Of a DNA stretch of 64,000 nucleotides, positions 6,247-53,451 are shown in pieces. Under the pieces are notes generated by a model, which worked only from the letters and a program-made list of their open reading frames with translations, did not search any database and had not been told where the DNA came from. Every line of letters starts with the position of its first letter. Positions within the stretch are counted from its first letter, which is position 1. The stretch covers positions 186,001-250,000 of the forward strand of contig NZ_BBWW01000003.1 in assembly GCF_001485215.1 (NCBI RefSeq). Direction: 5' to 3'. Position numbers and translations under genes: made by a program. Source of the DNA: Leptolyngbya sp. NIES-2104 (lineage in GTDB: Bacteria; Cyanobacteriota; Cyanobacteriia; Leptolyngbyales; Leptolyngbyaceae).

Positions 6247-6321
6247 TTTGTATGAGATGAATGTGATCTGTCAGGCTATTGCGCTCTGAAGTCCGCACAC
6301 ATTCAACCCAAGACACGAACG

Positions 6322-9300
6322 ATGGCATTTCAACTTCAAATTTTGCACGCCTCTGATTTTGAAGCTGGTATTCCGGCAATTACGGATGCAGTCAACTTTT
6401 CAACCGTTATTAATGCTCTAAGAGACGACTACGCAAACACACTTCTTCTGTCTTCGGGTGATAACTATATTCCTGGTCCCTTCTTTTCGGCAGCGAGTGA
6501 CCCAGCACTGCGACAAGTGTTGGGTCGCGAAGGCGTTGGGCGGGCAGACATCAGCATCTTAAATGAGATTGGCTTTCAAGTTTCGGCGTTTGGAAATCAT
6601 GAATTTGATCTCGGACCTAACACCGTTTCCACTTTAATCGGCGCTGATCAAGGCTATCGAGGAAGCCAATTTCCCTACCTCAGCACAAATTTAGATTTTT
6701 CGAGAGACACGAACCTGAATCGGTTTATTGTCCCTGACGGACAAGCTCCTCGCCCGAATAGCATCGCGAAGAGCGTTGTTGTGACGATCGACGGTGAACG
6801 AGTTGGCATTATTGGAGCGACAACGCCCACACTGCCCTCGATTTCGTCACCAGGGCAAAACATTATTGTTACGCCTCAACCCTTTGCTGGAGCACCAACC
6901 CCGGAACAGCTTGATGCCTTGACTCAAATTATTCAAACGGAAGTGAATAATCTGACCAGTGCAGGCGTGAACAAAGTTGTTGTGTTAGCGCATATGCAGC
7001 AGTTGTTCATTGAGCGAGAGCTAGCAAAACGCTTGTCAAACGTTGATATTATCATTGCGGGTGGATCTCACACATTGCTGGCAGATGACAACGATCGCAT
7101 TCGTCCCGGAGATACCGCAGGTGGAATTTATCCATTGATTGAACAGTCTCCAACGGGATCAGTGTTAGTTCTGAACACCGCTGCGAACTATGAATATGTA
7201 GGACGGTTAGTTGCTGAATTTGATGCACAAGGCAATATTGATCTATCTAAACTTGATTCTGTAATTAATGGCGCTTACGCAACAGATGATGCAAATGTTT
7301 CTGCACTGATTGCCACCAATCCGGGAACACCTGATCCTGAAGTTGTAGCAATTGCTCAAACTCTGCGAGATCAAGTGGTTGTGCCTAAAGATCGCACTAT
7401 CTTTGGAAGTACCAGTGTCTTTCTTAATGGGACTCGTGAAGATGTTCGGACTCAGGAGACGAACTTAGGCAACCTGACAGCGGATGCAAATCTATTTGTT
7501 GCCAGAGAGGTCGATTCGAGTGTTGTGATCTCGCTCAAAAACGGTGGCGGCATTCGAGATAATATTGGACAAGTCAGCGGTGCAGGAGGAGCAACGGGAG
7601 CTGTCGATCGATTACCTCCTGCTGCGAATCCGCTGTCTGGAAAACAAGAAGGACAAATTTCTCAACTCGATATCGAAAATTCCCTCCGCTTTAACAATGG
7701 ATTAACCTTAGTAACCGTCACTGCCGCACAACTTAAAGAGTTAGTTGAGCATGGCGTTTCTGGTGTTCGTTCTGGCGCAACTCCTGGAGCTTTCCCACAG
7801 GTTGGAGGATTTCGATTTAGCTTTGATCCCGCTCGAACGGCTCGAACTGCAACAACAGTTGGCGATCGCGTTCGTTCTCTTGCAATCACCGATGAGAACG
7901 GCAACCCAATCGATCAAGTCGTTCTAGATGGGCAGATTGTCGGCGACCCGAATCGCACGTTTCGCATGGTGACGCTGAACTTCTTAGTCGGCGAAACTGG
8001 CGCAGCGACGGGAGGCGATGGTTATCCATTCCCGCAAATTGTTGCAGCAAATCCGACACTTGCCAATCGGTTAGATCTAGTCAACGCCAATGTTCCACGT
8101 ACTGGGGAAGCGACTTTTGCGGCGAACGGAAGTGAACAAGATGCTTTTGCGGAATATTTAGAAGCGATCGACACTTTTAATGCCGCTGATGTTAGCCCGA
8201 TCGCAGACTCACGCATTCGGAATTTAGGGGTTGCCGCTGAGTTCACAAACAATCTTTCGGGTGCTACAAGCGCACTCCGGAAGATTGGAACATTTTCAGG
8301 CACTGGCTCAGAAATTTCTGCTTACGACGCAGGCACGAAACGCTTGTTTGTCGTGTCTGGTCGGTCAACGATGCAGGTGCTAGATATCAGCAATCCGAAC
8401 AATCCGACTCTGGCACAGGAGATTGATCTCTCAGCCTATGGTGCGGGTGCAAATAGTGTTGCTGTAAGCAATGGTTTGGTTGCGATCGCAGTTGAAGCGA
8501 CGACTAAAACTGATCCCGGTCGAGTTGTTTTCTTCAGAGCAGATGGCACTTTCCAAAATGCTGTCACCGTTGGCGCATTGCCAGATATGCTGACGTTTAG
8601 CCCGGATGGAACAAAGGTTTTAGTGGCAAATGAGGGCGAACCGAATAGCTATAATCAAGCTAATTCGGTTGATCCAGTTGGTTCTGTTAGCATTATCGAC
8701 TTGAGTAATGGAGTCGTGAATGCAACCGTGAATACTGCGGGATTCGAGAGTTTTAATGCTCTAAAAGCAGATTTACAAGCAAAAGGTATTCGCATCACAG
8801 GACCGAATGCAACCGTAGCGCAAGATTTGGAGCCTGAGTACATCACAATTTCAGGCGATAATAAAACGGCTTGGGTGACGTTGCAGGAAAATAATGCGAT
8901 CGCAGTGGTTGATATTGCGACATCGAAAGTAACAAGTCTTCTCCCTTTGGGTTTGAAGGATCATAGCAAAGGTTTACCAACGCTGAAAACTTATGAGTTC
9001 AAAGACCTTCCTGTTCTCGGAACAACCGCAACAGTCAATCCGAACAATCCCACTCAAACAACAGCCGGACAAAACATCCGACTGGGTGGCTTTTCTGGAT
9101 TGGTCTTTGAAGGGATTGCGGCAAATGGCAATTTCAAATTTATTACACATACCGATCGCGGTCCGAATGGTGAACCTGGCGATCAGGGTCGCCCGTTTGC
9201 ACTGCCGAATTTCCAGCCACAACTCATTCGATTTGAGTTAAATCAGGCTTCGGGTGAAATTACGTTCACAGAGCGCATTGGTTTAAGTCGCCCCGATGGC

Positions 9301-49676: not shown

Positions 49677-51404
49677 TCATTCATCTGATCCTACCAGCGT
49701 AATCACATCGGTAACTTTGTGTTTCCCCCGATGTTTGAGGTTATGCCTCTCCGGGTCAATTTGATGTCTTTGGTGATGCTCCTGGACATCACTGCGTTCC
49801 CTCAGCGTTTTTTCGATTCTAGGCTGAGATCCCCCAACACTCTTCAAGAGTGAAATCGTAATCGCCCATTTCTGATCATGGAGTCGATCTCGTTTATCGT
49901 TATAGTCCATAATCGCCCCAATCCAATCATCGATCAGCCGTTGACTACTTTCAGTCGAGGACTTCGTGCGTTTCGCCGATTCAACCGGGGCGCTCAGTGG
50001 TTTTTCCGGTTTTGGTTGTGGCTTCTCGGACTGGATTCGTTTTGCCTTTGGTGCTGGCTGAGAGATCGTCGCTTGTTGTAGCGCCACCAATTGTTGAATC
50101 GCCCCGACCAGTTGTTGAATATCCTGACGCAATGGGTCATCTGCCTGGAGCTTTTGAGCCTCCACAACCTGTTGAGGTCGTTCTTCAGTCGATTCTACCT
50201 GTTGGGTGTTCTCTTCTGCTTCCTGGGTCAAATCCGCCGCATTCAACCGTTCTTCAATCCATTCCAGCAGTTTCTGTGCCTTTTCCGGTTGCGTCCCCTC
50301 CGGTGAAATCGTCTCCAACACCTTCGACCAGCGATCGCGCTCCTGTTGAAAAATCCGCAACTGCCCCACTTTCCGACGAGGCGGCAGAGCTTCAAGCGCC
50401 TGTTTTGCCTGCTCCAAGCTTGCCTGACTAAACATCTCAATTGCCACCACTCCTCCATGCCCCAACTTAATGCCTTTACGTTTACCGTTGTAGAGCGCGA
50501 TCACCTTGTCTGCAATCTCATAATCGCTGTAGTGACGTGAAGCCGTCAGGGATCGCTTCAACTCACCATCCTCTTCATCGAGAATCTGAAAGTGCCCTTG
50601 AATTGCTGCCTTAAACTCAGTCGCATCAACGGTCGGTGGGCAATACCAAAAGGTGGCAATACAGGCATACACGGAGCGAAACAAGTGCGTGTACAAATTA
50701 TCCTTGCCTTCCCTCGTCGGCACGAGACCTTGAAAGTTTTGATCGCATGATCGCGCCACCGCCTGCCCAAACTTGGCATTCACTTCATCAGCGGGCATCT
50801 CCACTGCTTGGGGTAATTCCCGGCGTAGTTTCTCGATCGCCGTCACGACACGTTTCGCCGTCGCCAGCGTCGGAATTTCAAACGCCAACCCCTTCTCCCC
50901 GCGCCGTTTCACCGCCCCCCGAAACGTCACCGACCATTTCGACTTGACTTCAAACCGAGCGGTCGAAAGCAATTCAGCCGAGCGTCGTCCCGTCAGCACT
51001 GCCAACCCAGCGGCAATATCCGCCCAATCTGGCTGCCCGATTAATTGGACAGCCCGCGCCGCGATCGCATCGGGGTCATGAAGAAACTGCACCTGTTCAT
51101 TGCGCTTAGCGACATTGCCTTGTTTGCGATCGTTAATTTCGGCATACTCCTGCTTAGAAAGCCCCACAATCTCCAGTGACCAATGATCTTCTCCCAGCGC
51201 ATCCTTAATGGCTCGACGAGTCATATCCATCAGTCTTTGTTGTTGGTCAAGCCTGGGCTTACTGTGTTGCGTTGCCCAGTGATCGCGCATCTGCACTGTA
51301 AAGTCTTGCAACCGTTGACGATCGCCCTCAGACTCAGCCAGAGACTGAATAAAGGGCAAATACTTATGTGTGATCGCATGATCGAGCCAAGCGGAGCGAC
51401 CCAT
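49677..51404 (-). CDS. telomere resolvase (protelomerase)-like protein
   Basis: 575 residues. The N-terminal half is helical and charged (SWLDHAITHKYLPFI-type opening, then TRRAIKDALGEDHW). The core (about residues 130-330) shows the tyrosine-recombinase/telomere-resolvase pattern: IAAGLAVLTGRRSAELL (Arg), FRGAVKRRGEKGLAFEIPTL (Lys), LYTHLFRSVYACIATFWY (Arg) and LTASRHYSDYEIADK (His and Tyr). These correspond in order to the R-K-R-H-Y set of TelK/ResT. The C-terminal 200 residues are low-complexity, Gln/Glu/Lys/Pro-rich with a coiled-coil flavour. Telomere resolvases make hairpin ends on linear replicons; related genes occur on cyanobacterial plasmids with unknown function. A plain tyrosine recombinase is the alternative. 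Confidence 0.65.
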   Translation of the reverse strand: MGRSAWLDHAITHKYLPFIQSLAESEGDRQRLQDFTVQMRDHWATQHSKPRLDQQQRLMDMTRRAIKDALGEDHWSLEIVGLSKQEYAEINDRKQGNVAKRNEQVQFLHDPDAIAARAVQLIGQPDWADIAAGLAVLTGRRSAELLSTARFEVKSKWSVTFRGAVKRRGEKGLAFEIPTLATAKRVVTAIEKLRRELPQAVEMPADEVNAKFGQAVARSCDQNFQGLVPTREGKDNLYTHLFRSVYACIATFWYCPPTVDATEFKAAIQGHFQILDEEDGELKRSLTASRHYSDYEIADKVIALYNGKRKGIKLGHGGVVAIEMFSQASLEQAKQALEALPPRRKVGQLRIFQQERDRWSKVLETISPEGTQPEKAQKLLEWIEERLNAADLTQEAEENTQQVESTEERPQQVVEAQKLQADDPLRQDIQQLVGAIQQLVALQQATISQPAPKAKRIQSEKPQPKPEKPLSAPVESAKRTKSSTESSQRLIDDWIGAIMDYNDKRDRLHDQKWAITISLLKSVGGSQPRIEKTLRERSDVQEHHQRHQIDPERHNLKHRGKHKVTDVITLVGSDE

Positions 51405-51434
51405 ACCGAAAAGCTCCAGATTCAGATTTGTATT

Positions 51435-51451
51435 GATATAGATACTATATC
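51435..51451. promoter_or_regulatory. palindrome upstream of the telomere-resolvase-like gene
   Basis: GATATAG-ATA-CTATATC is a perfect inverted repeat with 7-bp arms and a 3-bp centre, 31-47 bp upstream of the gene's ATG. The surrounding 51405-51664 is AT-rich and gene-free. It could be an operator overlapping the promoter; it is shorter than known telomere-resolvase target sites. Confidence 0.35.
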
Positions 51452-51667
51452 CACATCCATATTAATAGTCAATGCAGCGCGAACCCTATTTATATATAAA
51501 CTTCCTCACCATGCTAGACCTCAGATGATTGCGAACGAAGAGAGGATTGAAAGGTCAGCGAATTCATCGTGGTCAGGGGGAACATGACATAATGCCTCAG
51601 ATCGCTAAATTTTGCCTCGTAGATAGCAGAAACAGCGAATTCTTGAATCTGAATTAACCTGAAAGTG

Positions 51668-52027
51668 ATGATTGAAATTCTTCAGAGTCGCGCCACACCA
51701 GAGCAGATGACCTCCATGCTGGAAGTACTGGGCATCTATGTTAAGTTAGGGGTTGACATTGATCGCGAGGTGATAGCCGGAGGCGGAGAGCTTCATGCAG
51801 ACTGTGAGAAAGTGCTGCTTAAGTCTGGGAGTCGGCAAGCCGACGTGTGGGGCGCGGATTGGTATCCCTTCAGTCAAACGATTGGGTATGAGTCCATCAT
51901 CAACATCCGAGCGAATGCAAACAATCGCTCAATGAAGATCCAAGACCCGGTGATTCGATCGCGAATTGAGGACATAGTTTATCGGTATTTAGGCGGTGTG
52001 GAATGGCAATCAACTGGGACAATCTGA
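51668..52027 (+). CDS. DUF5674-type small protein
   Basis: 119 residues from ATG 51668 (a GTG lies three bases before). The sequence EILQSRATPEQMTSMLEVLG, VKLGVDIDREVIAGGGELHA and WGADWYPFSQTIGYESIINI followed by NRSMKIQDPVIRSRIE matches the DUF5674 family as I remember it. The conserved GGGELHADCE and WGADW blocks suggest an enzyme-like fold; the function of the family is unknown to me. It overlaps the next gene by 25 bp, so the two are translated together and behave as a two-gene unit of toxin-antitoxin style, which is inference from layout only. Confidence 0.6.
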   Translation: MIEILQSRATPEQMTSMLEVLGIYVKLGVDIDREVIAGGGELHADCEKVLLKSGSRQADVWGADWYPFSQTIGYESIINIRANANNRSMKIQDPVIRSRIEDIVYRYLGGVEWQSTGTI

Positions 52028-52359
52028 AGCAGCGATACCTCCAATCTGGTCGTGCCTCTCAGTTAGAAAGCATCGTCCTGAACCTGGCGCGAATTCAGAC
52101 CTTAGCCAACAGTGGCGAGGACGGACAAGTGGCGCGTCACTTAGTGCGAGAGAGTCAGTTTTTGATTGAATGGACGGTGCCAACGATTGACCTGGAAACT
52201 GACTTGCCGATTGCCACAGCATTAGTTGATCTTCAGCGACAACTCAGTGAGTGGAAACTCGATTGGGACGGGCTGTGGGAAAATGCCAGCGCTCGTTCCT
52301 CTTTAGTGATGCAAGCCCAGCAGTGGTGCGACCGATTACAGACTTGTGTGATGCCGTAG
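52003..52359 (+). CDS. small hypothetical partner of the DUF5674-type protein
   Basis: 118 residues, helical, Gln/Leu/Trp-rich (WDNLKQRYLQSGRASQLESI, VRESQFLIEWTVPTIDLETD, WKLDWDGLWENASARSSLVM), with no membrane segment. The first half looks like a small helical bundle. The start ATG lies inside the preceding gene, 25 bp before its stop, in a different frame. I recognise it only as a cyanobacterial conserved hypothetical; the tight coupling suggests a partner protein or antitoxin-like role. Confidence 0.5.
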   Translation: MAINWDNLKQRYLQSGRASQLESIVLNLARIQTLANSGEDGQVARHLVRESQFLIEWTVPTIDLETDLPIATALVDLQRQLSEWKLDWDGLWENASARSSLVMQAQQWCDRLQTCVMP

Positions 52360-52684
52360 CGATGACCTGGCGGTGCAATGGAGCAGAAATATCAGTCGCA
52401 ACGCGGTCTTAGCGGGCGTGAGATAAGGCAAATTACCGAGTTTGAGCATCACCATCAAAAGCGATAGACCTGTGCTGGCAGGGGGACTCTTGGACACAGC
52501 CGCGCAGTAACTCTGGCAGTTGTGCCTCTTCTGGGGTGCGGAATGTCATTGCTTTCAGCCGCTTAGTCAACCGAGTTGTCTTTGTGCGATCGCTTGCTCA
52601 GATCCAGATTAGAAGGCAAATTGAAACCCAAATGCCCTGCAAGATGGAATGCTTACAATGAGAAGAGAGTGAGGTAAATCTCGG
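52360..52684. other. intergenic region containing a decayed gene copy
   Basis: 325 bases. The middle (52428-52528) is a degraded duplicate of the gene at 53472-53804. The AT-rich end before 52685 should hold the promoter of the xisH-xisI pair. No further feature was seen. Confidence 0.45.
52428..52528 (-). pseudogene. deleted duplicate of the gene at 53472-53804
   Basis: Two blocks match that gene: 52428-52458 (GCAAATTACCGAG…CACCATCA) corresponds to its 3' end, and 52461-52528 (GCGATAGACCTGTGCTGGCA onward) to an internal part. About 200 bp between them is missing. The copy has diverged at several positions, so it is not a recent duplication. Confidence 0.7.
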
Positions 52685-53095
52685 ATGGCAAAAGACCGAT
52701 TTCATTATGTGGTCAGAACCGCATTGGAAAAAGAGGGCTGGAGAGTTACCGATGATCCCTACGTCATCAATATTGATGATGTCGAGTTCGAGATTGACTT
52801 AGCGGCAGAAGAACTTTTGGCGGCAGAGCGAGAGGGACGCAAAATCGCCGTAGAAGTGAAAAGCTTTATCAGCCCCTCTAACACTTCCGAATTTCACACC
52901 GCTTTGGGTCAGTTTCTGAACTATCGGGATGCGCTTGACCAGATGGAGCCAGACCGCCAGCTCTACCTTGCCGTTCGTGAGCCAATCTACACCAGCTTTT
53001 TCCAACGCCGCTTTATTGTGTCAGCAGTGAAACGCTATCAACTGCGATTGGTGATCTATGATGTTCAACAAGAGGTGGTACTCCAATGGCTGTAG
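52685..53095 (+). CDS. xisH: XisH-family protein
   Basis: 136 residues, full length for the family: MAKDRFHYVVRTALEKEGWR, INIDDVEFEIDLAAEELLAA and REGRKIAVEVKSFISPSNTS. The E-x-D…E-V-K pattern is that of a restriction-endonuclease-like fold. XisH was named from the fdxN element of Anabaena, where xisH and xisI are required with xisF for excision; in most cyanobacteria the pair is scattered in many copies without that element and behaves like a toxin-antitoxin-type unit. It overlaps xisI by 10 bp. No xisF-type recombinase is next to it, though a telomere-resolvase-like recombinase lies 1.3 kb upstream. Confidence 0.88.
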   Translation: MAKDRFHYVVRTALEKEGWRVTDDPYVINIDDVEFEIDLAAEELLAAEREGRKIAVEVKSFISPSNTSEFHTALGQFLNYRDALDQMEPDRQLYLAVREPIYTSFFQRRFIVSAVKRYQLRLVIYDVQQEVVLQWL

Positions 53096-53451
53096 AGCAA
53101 TATCGGCAGTATATTCAACGACTGCTCTCCGAGCGACGATCGCGTTCCTTCAAACCCCATAATGCCCAAGAGTATGAGGTTCAGACGATCTTCGACACTG
53201 AGCAGGATCATTATCAACTGCTTTATGTTGGGTGGCGAGGAACCCGACGTGATTTCGGGTGCATCCTGCATCTAGATATCAAAGATGGCAAGATTTGGAT
53301 TCAGCATGATGGCACGGAAGAAGGAATTGCCAATCGTTTAGTGGAATTTGGTGTGCCGAAACAAGATATTATCCTGGCATTCCATGAACCTGAAGTGCGG
53401 CAATTCACCGATTTTGGCGCTGCTTCCTTTGATCCCGTTTCATCAAAGTAG
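53086..53451 (+). CDS. xisI: XisI-family protein
   Basis: 121 residues: the opening YRQYIQRLLSERRS, the core QTIFDTEQDHYQLLYVGWRG and GCILHLDIKDGKIWIQHDGT, then EEGIANRLVEFGVPKQDIIL and AFHEPEVRQFTDFG, which is diagnostic. It overlaps the end of xisH, so the two are co-translated, and they are thought to act together. Both genes look intact. Confidence 0.9.
   Translation: MAVEQYRQYIQRLLSERRSRSFKPHNAQEYEVQTIFDTEQDHYQLLYVGWRGTRRDFGCILHLDIKDGKIWIQHDGTEEGIANRLVEFGVPKQDIILAFHEPEVRQFTDFGAASFDPVSSK

Follow-up and report, generated by a model that had tools for sequence, protein, structure and literature searches.

The question raised by this locus is whether a short palindrome, lying just upstream of a telomere resolvase-like gene in Leptolyngbya sp. 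NIES-2104, takes part in the control of that gene. The window analysed here is a stretch of 64,000 nucleotides within the 263,280-bp contig C3, and the features relevant to the question are the following.

49677 to 51404, minus strand: telomere resolvase (protelomerase) gene, 575 aa (PF16684, ResT-TelK_cat).
51405 to 51467, minus strand: conserved upstream block of 63 bp, 54/63 identical to NIES-3755.
51431 to 51444, minus strand: telomere-type element TATCTATATCAATA in the -10/start region, made up of the palindrome's right half with flanking bases and matching the G387:C4 end.
51435 to 51451, no strand: palindrome GATATAG-ATA-CTATATC (GATATAGATACTATATC), overlapping the -10 box and present as a single copy in the assembly.
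51444 to 51449, minus strand: -10-like hexamer TATAGT (consensus match), identical in NIES-3755.
51447 to 51465, minus strand: telomere-type element in the spacer, TTAATATGGATGTGGATAT, the segment that scores best against the telomere-like ends of pLBX.
51467 to 51472, minus strand: -35-like hexamer TTGACT (consensus match).

The product of 49677-51404 contains a PF16684 catalytic domain (E 4.4e-32; 111.5 bits, cut-off 27) and resembles protelomerases in the PDB (4dwp, E 1.8e-10; 2v6e, E 2.1e-8), which bears out the description of the gene in the initial annotation as telomere-resolvase-like. GRR, R, GH and Tyr positions are aligned in 11/11 proteins compared, phiKO2 included, and the aligned Arg, Arg, His and Tyr are the known active-site residues, with a catalytic role. 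The catalytic domain and the aligned Tyr, His and Arg are held in common with the hairpin telomere resolvases of the PF16684 family (TelK of phiKO2, TelA and ResT). The window resolvase differs from this family in a C-terminal part far longer than the Pfam domain span, in the lack of a visible cognate telomere in its own assembly, and in a promoter with telomere-type words.

The palindrome is found exactly as reported, at 51435-51451 with its centre at 51443. This is 39 bp before the start codon of the minus-strand ORF, whose first base is 51404, in agreement with an earlier estimate of about 40 bp. The upstream DNA is AT-rich, as had been claimed, but 'strongly' somewhat overstates the case, because 63% AT in 120 bp compares with a mean of 55.5% for 214 ORF upstream regions of C3. 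As a palindrome, the site is weak and unexceptional. Perfect palindromes with arms of 7 or more and a gap no longer than 3 were counted as equally good. Dinucleotide shuffling of 51405-51524 produced one in 90 of 2000 sequences, 13 of the 214 C3 ORF upstream regions have one (7/48 where AT is at least 0.6), and they occur at 71 distinct centres across the contig. The pattern GATATAGNNNCTATATC has one occurrence in the 6.39-Mb assembly. No RNA element was matched in 51300-51800 by Rfam at gathering scores, and no viral relatives were confirmed among viral contigs.

The conserved unit is the predicted sigma-70-type promoter, not the palindrome. The sequence TTGACT-17-TATAGT (51444-51472) has 10/12 consensus matches and a spacer of 17, and the palindrome overlaps its -10; the 500 bp searched contain two promoter-consensus sites, where shuffled sequence averages 0.9. 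By this consensus match, the candidate operator overlaps the resolvase gene's own predicted promoter. NIES-3755 (81.5% identical) is the only close orthologue with readable upstream DNA, the FACHB-63 sequence stopping inside the gene and G390:C240 being without its N terminus. The blastn homology upstream of the gene ends at 51467, and conservation in NIES-3755 fades above the -35. Within this block, NIES-3755 retains the -10 hexamer, the right half of the palindrome and TATAGTATCTATATCAA. In all, 15/17 palindrome bases are retained, and the symmetry is lost because both substitutions lie in the left arm. The palindrome is absent from the other upstream regions compared and is thus not conserved among orthologues, the outcome that the initial annotation had named as refuting its reading.

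Telomere-like ends can be recognized in related plasmids. In L. boryana, contig G387:C4 at both ends and contigs C2 and C5 at the left end have a common pattern containing ATCCATA(C/T)C words; one tip among these ends has GTAAGTTC-A-GAACTTAC. The NIES-3755 plasmid1 record, labelled circular, opens at its left end with L. boryana-type end sequence, which its right end does not have; the telomere-like end in this strain is approximately 1.5 kb upstream of the resolvase gene. NIES-4102 plasmid2 has palindromes with 94-bp arms at both ends, and plasmid3 has one with 46-bp arms at the right end. In G027 (C1:2110500-2116500), G395:C54 (5000-13000) and G409:C72 (1-8500, with the centre masked or N), resolvase copies stand head to head within inverted repeats of kilobase length that are perfect or nearly so, as would be expected from hairpin read-through. 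Several cyanobacterial plasmid records look linear in spite of a circular label; those with telomere-like or mutually inverted-repeat ends (in NIES-3755 the left end only) are AP017309.1, NZ_CP092421.1 / G387:C2, AP018305.1, AP018302.1 and NZ_CP026691.1. An odd centre, TATC-A-GATA, is common to the telomere palindromes of the NIES-4102 plasmids and G027, and tandem units of about 20 bp, reminiscent of repeat telomeres, run from the tip inwards at the ends of NC_014535.1 and the left end of NC_020052.1.

The window promoter was compared with these ends by a two-segment score, taken from the two best ungapped segments between a promoter and a plasmid end. It ranks 1/214 among C3 ORF upstream regions against the NIES-3755, pLBX and pLBY ends each (2, 1 and 1 when only the best segment is scored), as opposed to 82, 70 and 26 of 214 against three unrelated plasmid ends. 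When similarity is summed over five Leptolyngbya ends, the maximum on the whole of C3 is the window promoter, and z values of 5.6, 4.7 and 2.1 with three Leptolyngbya ends compare with no more than 1.0 for any of the remaining ten ends. The segment 51431-51444 is 14/14 identical to positions 237-250 of the L. boryana G387:C4 left end; since this identity alone has only E 0.34 in a whole-contig search, weight is placed on the combined score. The words TATGGAT and TATCTATATC are also present in the window promoter. A matrix built from the five Leptolyngbya ends only is of low specificity, 5/178 controls scoring as high as the window. It places the window, NIES-3755, G392:C86, pLBX and G399 within the top 1-6 of 178 controls and pLBY at rank 51, and gives no clear match for the distant homologues (FACHB-8 rank 8, G406 12, G395:C51 80 and Prado106 107, of 178 controls); FACHB-8, G406, pLBY, G395:C51 and Prado106 are either not outstanding by this matrix or match via a different word.

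These comparisons suggest that the window promoter shares sequence with the type of target used by the resolvase, the ends compared being those of relatives and not its own. The palindrome mostly reflects a TATAGT -10 box overlapping a telomere-type word. The initial annotation, in which the palindrome was suggested as an autoregulatory operator or part of a recognition site, pointed in the right direction, in that the promoter is similar to the telomere-like ends of relatives, but the palindrome is not the conserved unit.

A similar correspondence is seen in other cyanobacterial plasmids. End words differ by group (AATAGAACTAG in NIES-4106 plasmid7, TAACCTGTTA in pNPM10, TACAAGACTCT on one strand in NIES-4102 plasmid5 and ACTTGTATA in PCC 7822 Cy782206), and each group's end word has copies in that plasmid's own resolvase promoter. 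In nine plasmids, previously inspected by eye or in part, the resolvase promoter, ranked for similarity to the plasmid's own ends among the upstream regions of that plasmid, stands at 2/11, 1/20, 1/35, 1/40, 6/11, 1/23, 3/57, 1/41 and 6/42 (Fisher p 1.2e-4; 4.2e-4 by single best segment). In a cross matrix of 13 ends, the 13 own pairs have a mean z of 3.6 and the 144 foreign-group pairs a mean of -0.2 (Mann-Whitney 1.7e-6; label permutation 5e-5). Own-pair z values are 1.4 for NIES-3755, 3.6 for pLBX, 0.4 for pLBY, 9.2 and 7.9 for NIES-4106 p7 and p4, 2.8 for pNPM10, 4.7 for pNPM9, 2.6 for Cy782206, 4.1 for Cy782202, 6.8, 1.3 and 3.4 for NIES-4102 p5, p2 and p3, and -1.8 for PCC 7437. The pNPM9 promoter was reassigned for this matrix, after the failure of the prospective test described below, because an IS1634 copy (NZ_CP026691.1 2041-5962) splits the gene into residues 1-126 and 127-621, relative to pNPM10. 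The matrix was constructed without NIES-4106 plasmid2, FACHB-8, Prado106, G406 and G395:C51, and the promoters of the window, G392:C86, G399, Cal7716 and pP742401 and the PCC 7437 operon leader stand outside the own-pair statistics. The p values are optimistic, because related plasmids are not independent. The promoters and ends compared are AT-rich.

Not all plasmids fit. The misfits in the cross matrix are pLBY, PCC 7437 and, largely, NIES-4102 plasmid2, the last with a foreign z of 4.9 against its own value of 1.3; the NIES-3755 own pair, at 1.4, is also low. In pLBY, an upstream gene is 81 bp from the resolvase gene, which may be transcribed from it, and in PCC 7437 the resolvase gene follows another gene by 2 bp; such arrangements could account for the misfits of these two plasmids. 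The PCC 7437 leader reaches a z of 0.8 at most against its own end. Two promoters match the ends of relatives: that of Cal7716_p8 the Nostoc plasmid ends (z 5.0 and 4.8) and that of pP742401 the Cy782202 end (4.4). In five further plasmids, for which a rank near the top was predicted beforehand, the ranks were 17/18, 8/21, 5/25, 1/35 and 5/37, which is not significant (p 0.089); three of these five have no telomere-like end where one was looked for, which, like the split pNPM9 gene, was noticed after the test. The ends of Cal7716_p8 are not inverted repeats (25/100), and the single ends of pP742401 and NIES-4106 plasmid2 resemble, by eye, ordinary coding DNA.

Among 14 promoters, chosen from those with matches and counted without a shuffle control, the spacer is partly covered by telomere 8-mers in 12, and in 13 such 8-mers overlap the -10 or begin no more than 15 bp downstream of it. 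A protein bound to words in these positions would stand in the way of polymerase. On the sequence evidence, the window promoter probably carries operators of telomere type, and by binding them the resolvase would repress its own gene. The resolvase would recognize the telomere words at the telomeres first. With the telomeres occupied, surplus resolvase would bind the copies of these words in the promoter and, positioned at the spacer and the -10/start, would block RNA polymerase, so that its level would track how many telomeres it has to serve. Both the resolvase as the binder and repression as the effect are what we infer from this arrangement.

A plain promoter, in which the palindrome arises incidentally from the AT-richness of the -10 region and no regulator binds it, is an unlikely reading. 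In its favour, TTGACT-17-TATAGT suffices to explain the conservation, equally good palindromes are common and the symmetry is not kept in NIES-3755. This reading leaves unexplained, however, the rank of 1/214 against the ends of relatives but not against unrelated ends, and the way in which other resolvase promoters follow their own end words. The telomere-type operators might instead be the target of a different protein encoded by the plasmid, one that binds telomeres or acts in partition, the resolvase gene being one member of a small regulon. On PCC 7822 Cy782206, a second gene (6271-6912) is preceded by a match to the end repeats as good as that of the resolvase gene, indicating a possible regulon. 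This seems distinctly improbable for the window: telomere resolvases must recognize telomeres by virtue of their family function, and such recognition is thus required of the resolvase in any case.

It is most improbable that a resolvable telomere site, or the remnant of one, lies beside the gene. Phage phiKO2 has an annotated telRL 165 bp upstream of its protelomerase gene, and the position of the telomere-like end in NIES-3755 would also be in keeping with such a site; however, relatives have extended palindromes at their tips (arms of 94 bp and 46 bp, plus kilobase read-throughs), compared with the 7-bp arms found here, and conservation tracks the promoter. The palindrome itself was rejected as a telomere because its arms are too short and its symmetry is not conserved, and, being short and internal to the contig, it does not look like a resolution site.

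Autoregulation by the resolvase would have parallels in known systems. In iteron plasmids, Rep represses its own gene via iteron-like half-sites. The likeness lies in a replication or maintenance gene whose promoter has copies of the protein's functional target; the target is the origin there and the telomere here, with binding in the present case a prediction. The phiKO2 protelomerase locus is similar in having telomere sequence just upstream of the gene, and the region between telRL and the gene has TATTATGTG and GTGTTA-GATAA-type words in common with telRL, although these are borderline (the top segment is reached in 5.3% of 300 shuffles). It differs in that a full telRL palindrome adjoins the gene. 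A protelomerase gene is also carried by linear plasmids of Rhizobiaceae, which are different bacteria (PMC13293297), and the word 'promoter' is absent from the main text of that paper.

In the window's own assembly, neither the ends of the five contigs nor pattern and DNA searches with the ends of relatives revealed a telomere-like stretch; the searches gave one hit of E 0.19. Either the assembly lacks the tips, or the plasmid has become circular while retaining the promoter of a linear ancestor. Window 54231-53892 is syntenic with the NIES-3755 end region 610-949, which fits a putative common linear ancestor. Between the resolvase gene and this syntenic stretch, 51665-53451 contains DUF5674, an unassigned ORF and a XisH/XisI pair. 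When the C3 ends are joined, one open frame of 118 residues spans the junction, which is uninformative. The right end of C3 (260800-263280) is an inverted copy, in pieces 90-99.7% identical, of internal 134272-137157.

Cyanobacteria are named among the bacteria with hairpin-ended linear chromosomes in PMC3558466. Autoregulation via telomere words was not found in the open-licence literature searched, including passages of PMC11271964, PMC10612081 and PMC8987985, and in the same literature no description was found, for cyanobacteria, of the control of resolvase level on hairpin-ended replicons. As a tentative general rule, which may well not hold throughout, the resolvase promoter of hairpin-ended cyanobacterial plasmids could be built of the plasmid's own telomere words, in the spacer and at the -10/start. 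The enzyme would then count telomeres by titration, free telomeres drawing enzyme off and surplus shutting the gene, and promoter and telomere would co-evolve between groups. If this is true, the titration idea is directly testable, and, if C3 is linear, TATCCATATC-type words would be expected near its tips. Resolvase promoters would also offer a cheap predictor of telomere sequences missed by assemblies.
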